Shown piece by piece: positions 22,936 through 52,979 of a DNA stretch of 53,119 nucleotides. Origin of the DNA: Nitrospirota bacterium (GTDB lineage: Bacteria; Nitrospirota; UBA9217); the NCBI GenBank assembly GCA_035516965.1, contig DATIZR010000118.1, positions 1-53,119 on the forward strand, written 5' to 3'. A program made the translations under genes and the position numbers. How positions within the stretch are numbered: the stretch's first letter is position 1; the number at the start of each line of letters is the position of its first letter. The notes beneath the pieces are model-generated. The model saw only the letters and a list, made by a program, of their open reading frames with translations. It was not told the DNA's origin and did not search any database.

Positions 22936-24777
22936 ATGAATAATCTTGAAGAAATAGCAAGACTCATCCGTTATTACAGCCTGGTCATGTCCACGGAGGC
23001 CGGTTCCGGCCATCCCACTTCCTCCCTGTCCGCCGCGGACCTCATGACCGGCCTCCTGTTCGGCGGGACGTTCCGATACGACCTCGACGATCCCCATAAC
23101 CCGAACAACGACCGCCTGATCTTTTCGAAAGGCCACGCGTCGCCGCTGTTCTACTCGCTCTGGGCCGCGGCCGGAGCAGTCACCGAAGAGGAGCTCATGA
23201 CCTTCAGGAAGTTTGGCAGCCCCCTCGAAGGCCACCCCACGCCGGCCTTCCGGTATACCGAGGCGGCGACGGGGTCGCTCGGGCAGGGTCTCTCCATCGG
23301 CGTGGGCATGGCGTTGAACGCGAAATACCTTGACCGGCTCCCGTACCGGACCTATGTCCTGCTGGGAGACAGCGAGATGGCTGAAGGTTCGCAATGGGAG
23401 GCCATGGAGATCGCCGCCTATTACAAGCTGGACAATCTCGTCGGGATCCTGGACGTGAACCGGCTCGGCCAGCGCGGCGAGACCATGTACGGCCACGATC
23501 TCTCCGTGTACCGGAACCGCGCAACATCCTTCGGCTGGGAGCCGATCGTGATCGACGGGCACCATCTTCCCCAGATCCTGACGGCGTACCGGCAGGCGCT
23601 GCAGGCCAGGGACAGGCCGGCCATGATCATCGCGAGAACGATCAAGGGCAAGGGAGTGCCGTTCATCGAGGACAAGAACGGCTGGCACGGGAAGCCGCTC
23701 AAAAAAGATGAACTCGTCCGGGCCCTGGAAGCCCTCGGACCCGTGGACAGAACGATACGCGGCCGGATCGAGAAACCCGAAGACCTGCGGCCGCAGACGG
23801 AGGAGCCGCGGGAAGCACGGGCACTGGCCTACGATCCCGCCGTCCCAATCGCGACCCGACGCGCCTACGGGAACGCGCTCGAACGGATCGCCCCGCTCCA
23901 CCCGGCCATGGTGGTCCTTGACGGGGAGGTCAGCAATTCGACCTATGCCGATATCTTCCAGAAAACGAACCCGCAGCGCTTCTTCGAGATGTTCATTGCC
24001 GAGCAGAACATGGTCGGGACCGGCCTCGGACTCTCCCTCCGCGGGAAGATCCCCTTCGTATCATCCTTTGCTGCCTTCCTTACCCGGGCCTGCGACCAGA
24101 TCCGCATGTGCCAGTACTCGCACGCCAACATCAAGTTCTGCGGCTCCCACGCAGGCGTGTCGATCGGCGAGGACGGGTCATCGCAGATGGGGCTGGAGGA
24201 CATCGCGCTCTTCCGGACGCTGAGGGACAGCGTGGTCTTCTATCCCTCCGATGCGGTATCGACGGAAAAGCTGGTCGAGATCATGGCCGGCCACCGGGGG
24301 ATCGTCTACCTCAGGACGACGAGAATGGAGACCCCCATCCTGTACCGGAACGATGAGGCGTTCCGGATCGGAGGCAGCAAGGTGCTGAAGTCAAGCGGGT
24401 CGGACAAAGCGGCGATCGTCGCCGCGGGGATCACCGTGCATGAGGCGCTCGCGGCCTATGAGGAACTGAAGGCAAAGGGGGTCATGGTCCGCGTGATCGA
24501 CCTGTACTGCATCAAGCCGCTCGACCTGGCGACGCTCACACAGGCGGCGGAAGAAACCGGGGCGCTCGTCACCGTCGAAGACCATTATCCGGAGGGCGGG
24601 ATCGGTGAGGCGGTGGCAGCGGCCCTTGCCGGGCATCCTGCTCCCGTGCACTCGCTCGCGGTGCGGGCCCTGCCGAAGAGCGGCAAGCCGGCCGAACTCC
24701 TGGAGTTTGAGGGGATCTCCCGTGCGGGCATTGTCCGGGCAGTGAAGGAAATCGTGAAGCGCGGGAAGAAACGATAA
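22936..24777 (+). CDS. tkt: Transketolase
   Basis: A 613-residue thiamine-diphosphate enzyme that transfers two-carbon ketol units in the pentose phosphate pathway. It is the short form, near the animal type (about 620), not the roughly 660-residue E. coli type. The N-terminal domain has GSGHPTSSLS, SKGHASPLFYSLWAAAG and the TPP motif GDSEMAEGSQWEA...DVN (about 146-178). The middle domain has the cofactor-activating Glu in AEQNMVGTGLGLS (about 355-367), followed by FCGSHAGVSIGEDG. The C-terminal domain starts near residue 475. GGGAGG precedes the ATG. It is monocistronic as far as can be seen, with foreign DNA downstream. Confidence 0.9.
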   Translation: MNNLEEIARLIRYYSLVMSTEAGSGHPTSSLSAADLMTGLLFGGTFRYDLDDPHNPNNDRLIFSKGHASPLFYSLWAAAGAVTEEELMTFRKFGSPLEGHPTPAFRYTEAATGSLGQGLSIGVGMALNAKYLDRLPYRTYVLLGDSEMAEGSQWEAMEIAAYYKLDNLVGILDVNRLGQRGETMYGHDLSVYRNRATSFGWEPIVIDGHHLPQILTAYRQALQARDRPAMIIARTIKGKGVPFIEDKNGWHGKPLKKDELVRALEALGPVDRTIRGRIEKPEDLRPQTEEPREARALAYDPAVPIATRRAYGNALERIAPLHPAMVVLDGEVSNSTYADIFQKTNPQRFFEMFIAEQNMVGTGLGLSLRGKIPFVSSFAAFLTRACDQIRMCQYSHANIKFCGSHAGVSIGEDGSSQMGLEDIALFRTLRDSVVFYPSDAVSTEKLVEIMAGHRGIVYLRTTRMETPILYRNDEAFRIGGSKVLKSSGSDKAAIVAAGITVHEALAAYEELKAKGVMVRVIDLYCIKPLDLATLTQAAEETGALVTVEDHYPEGGIGEAVAAALAGHPAPVHSLAVRALPKSGKPAELLEFEGISRAGIVRAVKEIVKRGKKR

Positions 24778-24903: not shown

Positions 24904-24977
24904 CAATTGACTAATACCGTATTTGCATATTAGTTAATTTAAGATCAATTTGTGATAAATGGAATATTAGTCAATTG
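24904..24977. repeat. 13-bp perfect inverted repeat in AT-rich DNA
   Basis: CAATTGACTAATA (24904-24916) is answered by TATTAGTCAATTG (24965-24977), spacer 48 bp; a partial extra copy, TATTAGTTAATT, lies at 24928-24939. The interval 24778-25090 has no gene and is much more AT-rich than the flanking DNA. It may be an operator or the end of an acquired segment; no more can be said. Confidence 0.5.
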
Positions 24978-25090
24978 GCAATCACTCGGTTTTTCAATAT
25001 GGTATGTCTATTTCGTTTTGACGGCTCGAATAAAGTGGATTCAATATTGTCGTTTCGCTAATATCTTGTTAGTTCTGAGGAGGAGGCCCA

Positions 25091-25471
25091 ATGCACAGAA
25101 AATTTGTATCGATTTTACTTTCAATCCATCTCTTGCTAATCATGCTGGTCGTCACCTTCAATTCATTTAATCCTCAGAGTTCAAACGCTGATTTCTTTAG
25201 ACGTGGAATGATGCTTGTTGGAGCCCTTTTAACCTATACAATCTTCCTCTTTCTCTACTTCAGAAAGAAGGTGTTCTTTTCCATCGTTGGAATTGGAACT
25301 GCTTTATATTTTGTGCTGAACTTGGTTATCTATTTGCTGTTTGTTATCCGATCGCAACAAGAGAATTCGTTACTGATATTTTCAGCCACCTTTTTGCCCG
25401 GCATGTACGCCTCGCTTTCATATTTCATCTATTTAATGAAGGATCGCAAAGCAATAAAGGCAAGTGTATGA
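25091..25471 (+). CDS. Hypothetical four-helix membrane protein in a cassette-like unit
   Basis: A 126-residue protein with four hydrophobic helices (about 5-23, 38-58, 63-88 and 95-117), a positive N-terminus and a basic C-terminus; no family is recognised. Base composition is far lower in GC than neighbouring genes, indicating transfer. GAGGAGGAGG (25077-25086) is a strong ribosome-binding site just before the ATG. GTTAGTT (25068-25074) lies 16 nt upstream and an attC-like site 40 bp downstream, the layout of an integron gene cassette. Confidence 0.6.
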   Translation: MHRKFVSILLSIHLLLIMLVVTFNSFNPQSSNADFFRRGMMLVGALLTYTIFLFLYFRKKVFFSIVGIGTALYFVLNLVIYLLFVIRSQQENSLLIFSATFLPGMYASLSYFIYLMKDRKAIKASV

Positions 25472-25511
25472 GATTGTCATGCTATGTAATTCAATCAAAT
25501 CGGATGATTTA

Positions 25512-25568
25512 CTAACAAGTCGTTCGAGTCCCGCGCTCTGCGGCGCGGGGCTCAACTCGTCGTTAGAC
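25512..25568 (+). repeat. attC-like recombination site
   Basis: A 57-bp imperfect palindrome has the attC layout. CTAAC (25512) pairs with GTTAG, ending in the core GTTAGAC (25562-25568), which fits GTTRRRY. The inner arms GTTCGAGTCCCGCGC and GCGCGGGGCTCAAC pair with one unpaired base, matching the extrahelical base that gives attC sites their strand choice. It lies between two genes, 17 nt before the next start. Confidence 0.75.
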
Positions 25569-25585
25569 CGACACTGAGGATCGCC

Positions 25586-26761
25586 GTGAACATTGTCATT
25601 AATGGCCTTGGCGTCGCTGGGCCGACTCTTGCATACTGGCTGACGAAATCGGGGCATGACGTTGTCCTCGTCGAAAAAGCACCGTTGCTGCGTGCCGGCG
25701 GTTACGTCATCGACTTTTGGGGCATCGGCTACGACATCGCCGAAAAGATGGGTGTCATCGCCGATCTCCGACGCCTCGGCTATCAAGTGCGCGAGGTACG
25801 CTTCGTCGATGGTCGCGGTCTCAAGCGGGGCGGATTTCATGTCGATGTCTTCGGTCGCATGACCAACAATCGCTTCACCAGCCTGCCCCGCTCTGATGTC
25901 TCGGCGACGATGTATCGTGCCATTGAAGGCAAAGTTGAAACGATCTTCGGCGATTCGGTGGCTGCCATCGAAGAATACAACCACGGAGTTCACGTCGCCT
26001 TTGATCACGCGCAGCCGCGGGATGCCGACCTCGTCATCGGCGCTGACGGCCTTCATTCGCGGGTCCGTCAACTTGCGTTCGGACCGGAATCGGATTTCAA
26101 AGTCTCGCTCGATTACCATGTCGCGGCCTTTGAGGCGGAGGGCTACCGTCCGCGCGATGAGCTAATCTACCTCAGCCACGGCCTGCCTGGGAGGCAGATC
26201 TCACGATTCTCGATGCGTGACGACAAAACGATGTTCCTCTTCGTGTTTCGCGACGAGTACATGCGCGGCGACGATCCACAATCCATTCTCAGAAACGCTT
26301 TCGCCGACGCCGGCTGGGAGTGGCCCGGGATCGAAAAAGAGCTCGAATCCGCTAAGGATATCTACTTCGACACGGTCAGCCAGATCCGGATGGACCGATG
26401 GACGAAGGGACGGATCGCGCTGGTCGGCGACGCAGCAGCGTGCGTCTCGTTGATGGCCGGCGAAGGGACCGGCCTTGCGATCGCGGAAGCGTACGTCCTC
26501 GCCGGCGAGCTTCACGCCTGCGCCGACGATTTTGCTACAGCGTTCGCCCGCTACGAGCAGCGGTTGATGCCGTTCGTGAAGAGGAAGCAGGAATCGGCGG
26601 CGAGATTCGCTTCATCATTCGCCCCAAGGACTTCCGTAGGCATCACCTTCCGGAATGCAGTGACAAAGCTGATGGGAGTGCCGTTCATCGCCGAGTTCTT
26701 CGTCGGCCGCGGCCTTCACGACGACATCGAGCTACCGGATTATGACGTCACACCGGCCTGA
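25586..26761 (+). CDS. FAD-dependent monooxygenase, class A (cassette-borne)
   Basis: A 391-residue soluble flavoprotein of the PHBH/UbiH-like group that includes TetX-type and rifampicin monooxygenases. The Rossmann start is GLGVAGPTLAYWLTKSGHDVVLVEK (GxGxxG, about 7-31), the DG motif is DLVIGADGLHSRVR (about 147-160), and the FAD-phosphate motif is GRIALVGDAAACVSLMAGEGTGLAIAEA (about 276-303). It contains the stretch GYVIDFWGIGYDIAEKMG shared with uncharacterised homologues. The substrate is unknown, and a role in antibiotic or aromatic modification is only inference. The GTG at 25586 has GAGGA upstream. attC-like sites on both sides mark it as an integron cassette. Confidence 0.8.
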   Translation: MNIVINGLGVAGPTLAYWLTKSGHDVVLVEKAPLLRAGGYVIDFWGIGYDIAEKMGVIADLRRLGYQVREVRFVDGRGLKRGGFHVDVFGRMTNNRFTSLPRSDVSATMYRAIEGKVETIFGDSVAAIEEYNHGVHVAFDHAQPRDADLVIGADGLHSRVRQLAFGPESDFKVSLDYHVAAFEAEGYRPRDELIYLSHGLPGRQISRFSMRDDKTMFLFVFRDEYMRGDDPQSILRNAFADAGWEWPGIEKELESAKDIYFDTVSQIRMDRWTKGRIALVGDAAACVSLMAGEGTGLAIAEAYVLAGELHACADDFATAFARYEQRLMPFVKRKQESAARFASSFAPRTSVGITFRNAVTKLMGVPFIAEFFVGRGLHDDIELPDYDVTPA

Positions 26762-26801
26762 TCTCGCTGTCCCACGGACGGGCATGCACGGCCGCGTGGC
26801 G

Positions 26802-26867
26802 GTCTAACAAGCCGATGAAGATGGCGGTCGCCTGCGGCGCCCGCAGCGTATCGGCAGGGTGTTCACT
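26802..26867 (+). repeat. Second attC-like site, degenerate
   Basis: GTCTAAC (26802-26808) fits the inverse core RYYYAAC exactly. GCCGAT (26811-26816) pairs with ATCGGC (26850-26855), and CTGCGG/CCGCAG (26832-26846) forms an inner hairpin. The right-hand core is poor (GTTCACT, 26861-26867, with C instead of a purine), as expected if the last junction formed at a non-attI target or has decayed. Confidence 0.5.
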
Positions 26868-27023
26868 TGCAAATTACAACCAGTAAAGGAGAAGGCTGTT
26901 GACATAATATCCGCTACACACTAGTAAGTGAAACAGGCGATAAATGCCTTTAAAAAACCGCAGAATTAGCTTCGAGGGATATAAGAGGATTGAAACTATT
27001 GGGAGGAATGGCGACAGTAGCTA
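26868..27023. other. Gap after the cassette island
   Basis: No gene is recognised. It contains TTGACA (26899-26904) with a weak TAGTAA 17 bp on. The single sequence ending ATAAGAGGATTGAAAC (to 26996) resembles the 3' end of CRISPR repeats but is not repeated. Confidence 0.3.
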
Positions 27024-28436
27024 TCAGACGTTCGTCTTGATGCTGTCTTCCTGGATTCCGAGGACCTTCTCGACGATATCGGCAAGCACGCTGTCGTGGT
27101 CGTGGTTCAGCGTGAATACCCGGCACTGCACCACCCGGGCCGGGATGTAGTCGAAAAAATCCTTGAGCGGCTCTTTTTCGACCCTGCGCGTCAGGGGGTC
27201 GAACACATGGATCTGGCGCTCTCCCATCATGAGCGGGTTGATCGGCCTCGGGTCCTGGCTCGCCATGTCGACCCGGAATTGAAGGTCCTTGAGGCGCTGC
27301 GGCAGGTTCTTGCGGATCCGCTTGACCAGCTCGGCGGCATCTATGATCGTCTTCCCTTTTTCAAAGGCGCGCATCGAGAGCGTCACGTCGTAGGCCATCT
27401 TCCACTTGACCTCGCGCGACAGGATAGCCGCCCATTCCTGCCCGAGCTTTGCCGTGGCTCCGTTCTCCTTCGTGCCCCAGCGACGCACCGCTTCGAGCAG
27501 CGACCAGTCCGTCAGTTCGAGGTATTCCGGCAGGTTCTCTACGGGATTGTAGGGGAACAGCGCCGCCATCGTGTCCTTGAACAGCTCCTTCAAATGCTCG
27601 TCAATGGCCCGCGTGGTGCGGTGATAGTAGACATTGGTGTACATATAGAGCCGCGCGTTCAGGAACATGTTCAGCGCGCTGAGACCCGATTTGTGCAGCG
27701 TGAGCCCCTTATCCGTAAAGAAGGTGTAATACATGAGGCGGTCGATGTCCACGGCGCCGACGGCCACTCCGCACAGATAGGCGTCCCGGAGAACGTAATC
27801 GAGGTTGTCAACGGTATAGATGCCGGAGAGCAGCGGCTGGAGGAACTGGAGCCACCGGGGCTGTTTCCCCTGCTGCGTGACGACGCCTTTGCCGATCAGG
27901 AAGGCGATCTGGTCGGGGTTCAGCCGCTCCCCCTTGGAGAACTCTCCCGACGGACTGCGCCGGATGGCCCTGATCGCGTCACCCAACTCGGCCTTGATGA
28001 TGTGTTGCCCCAGCTTCTCATGGGTCAGCCCGAACTGGTCGAGATAATTGTCGTCGAAGAAATGGCCGAAGGGGCCGTGCCCCACATCATGGAGCAAGGC
28101 CGCGATGCGCAGCAGCTCTTCGATGTACTGCTCCGAGGGACAATCGGCTGCCGCCGCCTTCAGGGAAGGATAGAGGTGACGGGCGAACCTTCCGGCAAGG
28201 TGCATCGCACCGAGGGAGTGCTGGAACCTGCTGTGCTCGGCCGAGGGATACACCCACCGCGCGCTCTGGAGCTGGTAGATCTGGCGCAGCCGCTGCATCC
28301 ACGCGGTGTCGATCAGGTCCTTCTCTGTTTTTTCGCCTGCGCCGCGGGGCGTGGTGAACGAAATATACCCGTGAACCGGGTCTCCGAGCAGGGCGATGCC
28401 GTCATAAAATTCTTCCCCTCTGGTCAGTTCGCGCAT
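27024..28436 (-). CDS. HD-domain phosphohydrolase (dNTPase/SAMHD1-like)
   Basis: A 470-residue cytosolic metal-dependent phosphohydrolase related to dGTPase/SAMHD1/YwfO proteins. The HD metal site is visible as SRFQHSLG (His73), ALLHDVGHGPFGH (His116, Asp117) and a later Asp in VDNLDYVLRDA. The order H...HD...D and the phrase EHSRFQHSLGAMHLA are diagnostic. Such enzymes degrade dNTPs or related nucleotides; the exact substrate is unknown. The -10 box of its promoter ends 6 nt before the ATG and no ribosome-binding site is seen, so the mRNA may be leaderless. Confidence 0.85.
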   Translation of the reverse strand: MRELTRGEEFYDGIALLGDPVHGYISFTTPRGAGEKTEKDLIDTAWMQRLRQIYQLQSARWVYPSAEHSRFQHSLGAMHLAGRFARHLYPSLKAAAADCPSEQYIEELLRIAALLHDVGHGPFGHFFDDNYLDQFGLTHEKLGQHIIKAELGDAIRAIRRSPSGEFSKGERLNPDQIAFLIGKGVVTQQGKQPRWLQFLQPLLSGIYTVDNLDYVLRDAYLCGVAVGAVDIDRLMYYTFFTDKGLTLHKSGLSALNMFLNARLYMYTNVYYHRTTRAIDEHLKELFKDTMAALFPYNPVENLPEYLELTDWSLLEAVRRWGTKENGATAKLGQEWAAILSREVKWKMAYDVTLSMRAFEKGKTIIDAAELVKRIRKNLPQRLKDLQFRVDMASQDPRPINPLMMGERQIHVFDPLTRRVEKEPLKDFFDYIPARVVQCRVFTLNHDHDSVLADIVEKVLGIQEDSIKTNV

Positions 28437-50601: not shown

Positions 50602-50823
50602 ATGAAGAAGATTATCGCGCTTTTCACGGCAATGGCATTTGCTCTGACCCTCGGCGTTGCTTTCGCAGAGGAGAAGGCAGCCCCGGCTGGCGAGATGAAG
50701 GACATGAAGAAGGAAGAGAAGGCGCCGGCAAAGAAGAAGAAGTCAGCTAAGAAAGAGAAGAAGAAGAAGGCCGACAAGAAGACCGAAATGAAGAAGGACG
50801 AAATGGCTCCGGCAGCAAAGTAA
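50602..50823 (+). CDS. Secreted Lys-rich small protein
   Basis: A 73-residue protein with a clear signal peptide (about 1-22, cut near AFAEE). The mature part of about 50 residues consists almost only of Lys, Glu, Ala, Met and Asp (for example KAPAKKKKSAKKEKKKKADK). It is intrinsically disordered, very basic and without cysteine. Own promoter, AGGGGGTG ribosome-binding site and terminator make it a single-gene unit. Such peptides may bind anionic envelope polymers or DNA; no function is assigned. Confidence 0.7.
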   Translation: MKKIIALFTAMAFALTLGVAFAEEKAAPAGEMKDMKKEEKAPAKKKKSAKKEKKKKADKKTEMKKDEMAPAAK

Positions 50824-52426: not shown

Positions 52427-52979
52427 ACGGGGCGGGAATAATGATCAGGCATACATCGAAGGGATTCATACGGGAAGAGTCACGAATGGGGCCGCGATGG
52501 CAGTATCTGCAGATTCCGGTAGCCACCAGGCTTTCTGATAATCCTTCCGACTATTCCAATTCATTCCTCGCAGTAATTCTGGGCAATCCTCTAATCAGCG
52601 CTCTCCTGAAACTGTACTTATCGTCCGGCCGTACACACTTCAACCCGTAAATCAGTATCGTGTCGTAGAGATAGGTATCGTCACCTACACCTACTATCTT
52701 GCAGCCCCCTTGACGATTTATCTATGCGGAATACCGGTTGAAAATTATACATGAACGGCTCGGCTGAGGGGCGCGATTTTTGCGACCCTCTCGAGCCGAA
52801 TGGTTAGAACTGCTAGGCTTTGCTGGTAATACGGGCTGCGCCTTGAATTAGCGATTCAGTTGATTTGTTAGTCCTTGTTTTTCACTAACGGTAAGGTCAA
52901 CGGCAGCCAAACATAAGGCTATTGCTGCTTCGTAAAATAGAATTGGCGCAATGAAAAGAAGATCCACTCTTATTGGGAC
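52427..52979. other. Gene-poor region before an IS element
   Basis: No intact gene is recognised. A minus-strand open stretch (about 52551-52705) reads VRPDDKYSFRRALIRGLPRI near its end but has no start. A structured palindrome (CGGCTCG 52756 to CGAGCCG 52798, with inner AGGG/CCCT and CGC/GCG pairs) ends just before GTTAGAA (52803) and loosely resembles an attC site. Confidence 0.3.

Follow-up and report, generated by a model that had tools for sequence, protein, structure and literature searches.

How two gene cassettes came to be placed between the genes of a transketolase and an HD-domain protein in a Nitrospirota bacterium, with no integrase gene beside them, is the question raised by the stretch of DNA analysed here (the window, 53,119 bp, identical with contig C118, one of the 120 contigs of a 3.80 Mb draft genome that is 97.7% complete). 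A CALIN is defined in PMC9668308 and PMC9024848 as two or more attC sites separated by less than 4 kb, with no integrase gene in the vicinity, and off-target insertion, loss of intI and rearrangement are among the origins proposed for CALINs in PMC8618304. By considering the junctions of the cassettes, the DNA that precedes them and the related loci of the same genome and of its relatives, the locus is best explained (probability about 0.8) as a CALIN that still bears its attI, namely an integron platform that lost, or was parted from, its integrase.

Sites of the attC type were searched for with a covariance model (R1) built from 10 attC sites on intI-bearing contigs of relatives, none of them from the window. 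Home-made scans with strict or half-strict R boxes, which found few sites, were set aside in favour of R1; in integron-bearing plasmid stretches the strict attC pattern found no site except three in Gemmatirosa. A second model (R2) describes the last 71 bp of eight leaders, none of the window type. The features on which the discussion is based are the following.

22936..24777, + strand: transketolase gene, left chromosomal flank (NF004559, 897 bits)
24906..25070, + strand: integron leader without intI, ending at the attI cut point (homology to contig C53 of the same genome; profile of intI-adjacent leaders)
25018..25046, + strand: candidate cassette promoter, weak (-35 TTGACG, 17 bp, -10 TCAATA)
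25057..25070, + strand: predicted attI core GCTAATATCTTG^TT, crossover between 25068 and 25069 (R2, motif)
25069..25562, + strand: cassette 1, GC 0.41, with G^TT at both limits
25091..25471, + strand: predicted membrane protein, 126 aa, of no family (membrane nature judged from sequence)
25510..25568, + strand: attC1 (full-length R1 match, 53.1 bits, E 7.3e-10)
25563..26861, + strand: cassette 2, GC 0.60 (start GTTAGAC and own R'' GTCTAAC complementary at 7/7 bases)
25586..26761, + strand: FAD-dependent monooxygenase (PRK07588 type), 391 aa (NF005761, 538 bits, cut-off 454; PF01494)
26802..26867, + strand: attC2, accepted as a terminal site of foreign type (local shuffle test; weak with R1)
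27024..28436, - strand: HD-domain gene, right chromosomal flank (PF01966; full-length family matches, 81-93% identity)
52750..52809, - strand: further attC at the right contig end, terminal R' GTTCATG (R1, 50.1 bits, E 3.6e-9)

The initial annotation had placed two attC-bounded cassettes without an integrase at 25068-26867, and these coordinates were found to be exact to the base, as given by three G^TT junctions (G^TTAGTT at 25068, G^TTAGAC at 25562 and G^TTCACT at 26861). The first palindrome had been described as having a GTTAGAC core and one extrahelical base, in full agreement with the parts of attC1 (R'' TACTAAC, an L'' with one extrahelical C, and R' GTTAGAC), which has the same orientation as both cassette genes and whose R'' is complemented by the start of cassette 1 at 6/7 bases. 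A near-identical counterpart is present on an intI-bearing contig of a relative (G003:C128, L071:5450-5508). Furthermore, attC1 is 94% identical, across some 50 bp, to two sites of an array on contig C50 of its own genome and to one site on an intI contig of G003, so that cassette 1 probably derives from the family's own pool.

The second site is of a different kind. The covariance-model search that had been recommended, so clear for attC1, gave attC2 only 5.8 bits (E 0.26 over 261 bases; the second-best of nine matches there). Its L box differs (GCCGAT, an extrahelical G, then AAG), and its R'' is complementary at every base to the beginning of the cassette that it closes. When the interval from the monooxygenase gene to the HD-domain gene (26762-27023, 262 bp) was shuffled 20,000 times with its dinucleotides preserved, R'', L box, extrahelical G and GTT never arose together. 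Thus, attC2 is accepted as an attC of foreign type, with the caveat that its R1 match is weak and that a relaxed attC pattern occurs across the window at chance level (three found, against a mean of 2.5 in 30 shuffles). Its R' side, GTTCACT, presumably belongs to the host. The two sites are 1.3 kb apart with no intI near them, so that the CALIN definition applies, and each gene has its attC, recognized by R1 in the first case and by the local test only in the second.

The initial annotation had also noted a deviating base composition, which holds for cassette 1 only, cassette 2 being close in GC to most of the surrounding chromosome. The 126-residue protein encoded by cassette 1 had no match in Pfam, NCBIfam, PHROGs or PADLOC; within the phylum it was found convincingly in its own genome and in G009 (38% identity), with six more matches at E values between 0.001 and 0.01. 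For the monooxygenase, matches at E 1e-60 were confined to one of the 295 genomes of the phylum, that is, the genome under study, and its nearest relatives (66-68% identity) belong to Anaerolineae, Chloroflexales and Nitrococcus MAGs. Both genes are therefore absent from nearly all relatives and are not core genes. Homologues of the monooxygenase in other phyla were accompanied by no convincing attC, as judged with R1 at 4 of 21 loci (best match 15.6 bits) and by eye at six. The assignment of this protein to the superfamily that includes antibiotic-modifying enzymes stands at the superfamily level, and its best match among solved structures is Tet(50) (202 bits), but the step to an antibiotic-modifying enzyme fails, the tetracycline destructase model NF033476 giving 218.6 bits against a cut-off of 550. 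With the NF005761 cut-off passed and that of NF033476 missed, a role in resistance is possible but unsupported. Taken together with the non-core nature of the two proteins and with the local test of attC2, the E value of attC1 (7e-10) and its near-identical site on an intI-bearing contig refute the reading of two ordinary chromosomal genes with chance palindromes behind them, for all that attC2 fails R1 and that relaxed attC patterns are frequent by chance.

Searched with TIGR02249, the assembly yielded no integron integrase above the cut-off of 265 bits, the best matches (86.7 bits at most) being distant tyrosine recombinases; a functional intI is thus lacking at the locus, which is not a complete integron. 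Among the 61 genomes searched (this one and its relatives), 10 contain an IntI above the cut-off, including the one same-genus relative. The draft state of the genome, its 120 contigs and its estimated completeness mean that an intI gene may simply be absent from the assembly, and several attC clusters of this genome do lie at contig ends. It could be argued, on these grounds, that an ordinary integron was split by the assembly, its integrase residing on an unassembled or unbinned contig. However, the locus is flanked left and right by conserved chromosomal genes inside a contig of 53 kb, and the distance from the stop codon of the transketolase gene to the start of the leader, 128 bp, leaves no room for intI, so that such a split is very unlikely here. 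A case at a contig end within the window is provided by the further attC at 52750-52809, which is 310 bp from the end of the contig and whose cassette extends towards that end and past it.

The evidence that bears most directly on the origin of the locus is the 165-bp leader. It contains TATTAGT repeats at 24907-24916 (inverted), 24928-24937 and 24965-24974, and it is 75% identical over 166 bp to a stretch of contig C53 of the same genome, where the copy stops at the same TTGTT, 0.9 kb upstream of a lone attC. A profile was built from four leaders located in relatives between intI and the first cassette (L069, L070, L072 and L074), with the genome under study excluded. With this profile the window leader scored 28.3 bits, a value reached by none of 1000 dinucleotide shuffles (best shuffle, 9.6), and it is thus related to the intI-adjacent leaders of G002, G003, G004 and G010. 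The same profile gave 13.1 bits for C53 (reached by 2 of 1000 shuffles), 7.5 for C15 (0), 6.3 for C50 (1) and nothing for C1; when one leader was added to it and the search was run across the loci collected, the window leader obtained only E 0.2. The R2 model found a single match in the window (25045-25072, E 0.0027), at the place where the first cassette begins. By homology and by the position of the junction, the first cassette is preceded by a predicted attI.

The leader probably also supplies the promoter of the cassettes, as suggested by consensus matches. In the intI-bearing leaders of one group of relatives (group A, see below) a sequence close to TTGACC-N17-TACTGT, a strong promoter by consensus, is followed by GATAATAACTTG^TT. 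The candidate promoter of the window aligns with this TTGACC-N17-TACTGT, with a conserved -35 element (TTGACG, at 25018) and a degenerate -10 element.

These properties of the insertion point are what decides against insertion at a secondary site, which the initial annotation had offered as one origin and by which an integrase would have placed the two cassettes in a chance attG-type site between the transketolase and HD-domain genes. Such an origin would agree with the absence of the cassettes from nearly all relatives and with the terminal R' GTTCACT, which is not of the GTTRRRY form (the attC at 52750 ends similarly in GTTCATG). However, the last attC of any array is expected to have a non-consensus right side, and the junction is preceded by a leader that is common to another cassette locus and related to leaders found between intI and attI; since the attI leader is still attached, off-target insertion is unlikely at this locus. 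Insertion at attG sites, which Loot et al. are said to have described in 2024, reportedly leaves cassettes at odd chromosomal places with precise G^TT junctions, and in both respects the window locus is similar; an attG site, however, is an unrelated chromosomal sequence, whereas the cassettes here follow a leader that ends in an attI core. Insertion of this type is also mentioned in the accessible text of PMC12444791.

The chromosomal surroundings were also compared. In relatives the transketolase gene is found near the HD-domain gene, and the two are separated by other genes or by a short gap, where the window has the two-cassette array at 25069-26861. An empty copy of the site was not seen among the five relatives with both flanking genes whole on the stretch examined (L054, L056, L058, L059 and L060): the interval differs from that of the window in all five and contains a PAS-GGDEF gene, an FKBP-type gene (names read from translations) or a short gap. 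Transketolase or HD-domain genes adjoined IntI at none of 17 loci in relatives. As a separate observation, the interval (L054-L067) is variable within the family and may be a preferred landing place.

The reading as a stranded, attI-bearing platform gains from comparison with the other loci of the genome and of the family. In this genome R1 recognized 26 attC sites at E 0.01 or better, on 14 contigs; at E 0.001 or better, 13 of the 14 genomes of the family had matches, as did 11 of 27 others, with fewer per genome in the latter. When the sequence upstream of 76 clusters from this genome and its relatives was scored for an attI motif (for six more, the upstream sequence was too short), a score of at least 13 was reached on the cassette strand at 16 of the 76 and on the opposite strand at none, counts that are biased towards the motif because it was written from loci among those scored. 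Leader homology sorts the loci into five groups.

Group A: three loci beside intI, plus C4 and C102 of this genome
Group B: one intI-adjacent locus, three further orphans, and C1 of this genome
Group C: two intI-adjacent loci, two further orphans, and C50 and C33 of this genome
Group D: the window locus and C53
Group E: C15 and C117 of this genome

Thus, at least nine loci with attI plus cassettes are found in this genome, none of them with intI (the attC of C117 being weak, with genome-wide E values of 0.015 and 0.018). A junction test, which like the leader profile is free of the circularity that affects the motif, compared the bases after G^TT at 24 leader loci with the complement of the R'' of the first attC. 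Agreement was found at 57 of 96 variable positions, where 38.0 were expected by permutation (0 of 10,000 permutations reached 57), and at 44 of 72 in the 18 loci without intI (27.0 by permutation; 0 of 10,000). The 24 loci were taken from 27 clusters with a motif score of at least 12, the doubtful L108, L217 and L235 having been excluded; with these restored, the values were 59 of 108 against 41.5 (1 of 10,000). The fit was poor at C53 (1 of 4 variable bases), C1, C102 and two of the six intI loci. The cassette starts at the leaders are therefore, on the whole, placed as they would be by an integrase.

Leaders of this kind are not always accompanied by cassettes. Places matched by R2 at E 1e-5 or better numbered 22 in the 14 genomes of the family and one in the 27 other genomes. 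Eight of the 22 are members of the R2 model itself, among them all four that adjoin intI; at the 14 places outside the model neither intI nor a remnant of it was detected, and only three have a recognized attC (E below 0.01). Thus, some leaders are solitary or stand upstream of genes without a recognized attC.

As for the fate of the integrase, remnants of intI were observed elsewhere. At C102 a stump corresponding to the last 33 residues (aa 276-308, 73% identity) adjoins the leader, at C64 a stretch corresponding to aa 218-274 does so (R1 recognizes no attC there), and G007:C2 retains the last 22 residues. The stumps at C102 and C64 favour loss of intI generally. However, no remnant was found beside the window leader, including the 128 bp upstream, which, as regards deletion at the window locus itself, is a point against the preferred explanation. 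From the window locus intI may have gone by deletion, or it may have acted in trans from elsewhere. As a side observation, L190 (G000:C64, 4638-4999) has a group A leader with an intI remnant that is both truncated and broken, a platform decayed beyond that of the window.

On these grounds, the following course of events may be proposed. An integron integrase would cut the attC of circular cassettes and the attI at G^TT and join them. New cassettes are inserted next to attI. From the position of the cassettes, that of the monooxygenase, with its foreign attC, would have entered first, from outside, and that of the membrane protein, with an attC of the family type, later; the candidate promoter of the leader would drive them. 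The integrase gene would then have been deleted, or would always have worked in trans. The latter version leads to a distributed integron, in which one or a few integrases of the family would serve in trans many attI sites scattered over the chromosome, the integrase having disappeared from some lineages that retain the attI sites. This arrangement is regarded as a doubtful possibility; were it correct, cassettes would reach many promoters rather than a single array, and integrases acting in trans could place them under many chromosomal promoters.

With respect to systems already described, the stranded platform shares with the CALINs of PMC8618304, as they appear in the accessible text, attC-bounded cassettes without a nearby integrase, whereas the definition in the corresponding text of PMC9024848 does not include attI and the window locus retains an attI leader, which indicates a platform origin for this CALIN. 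The order of leader, attI and cassettes is common to sedentary chromosomal integrons, from which the locus differs in having no intI and only two cassettes, one of them with a foreign attC. In Xanthomonas, according to the accessible part of PMC12444791, CALINs occupy seven chromosomal loci away from intI and are present in approximately half of the genomes, and intI has a single home at ilvD. The cassette clusters of the genome studied here are similarly dispersed on the chromosome, but many are accompanied by attI leaders, while attI is not mentioned in that part of PMC12444791. It should also be considered that IntegronFinder 2, as described in the available sections of PMC9024848, searches for attI of class 1 only and, in its default settings, lists a CALIN when it has two attC or more, so that, with single attC unreported, stranded platforms would be missed.

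In the portions of the literature that the searches covered, CALINs that keep a dispersed attI leader were not described, which is no proof that they are unpublished; for attI sites without an integrase, the only relevant item was a paper with the term 'attI-like site', and the searches on integrons in Nitrospirae or Nitrospirota did not match the pattern. Within these limits, CALINs and their proposed origins are known, and the CALIN that keeps its attI leader, with many such loci, appears to be new. An attached attI leader offers a means to ask the question of CALIN origin elsewhere.

A few minor observations may be added. Screening of the window for Rfam families at the gathering threshold and for tRNAs gave none, and a lysine-rich small protein, secreted-looking, is encoded at 50602-50823 (+ strand) in a stretch of lower GC. 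In G006:C196 two strong Pc-attI leaders (L238 and L239), oppositely oriented, are separated by 13 kb. The G006 genome gave no match to IntI at E 1e-50 and none to attC at E 0.001; these leaders are perhaps promoters retained after loss of the integron. Finally, the leaders of groups B, C and E have, upstream of the attI core, palindromic repeats peculiar to each group (L071, L195, L105, L106 and L216, and also L117, L119, L075, L204 and L181), those of group C containing several copies of a sequence close to AAGCATCTAATATTAGATGC.
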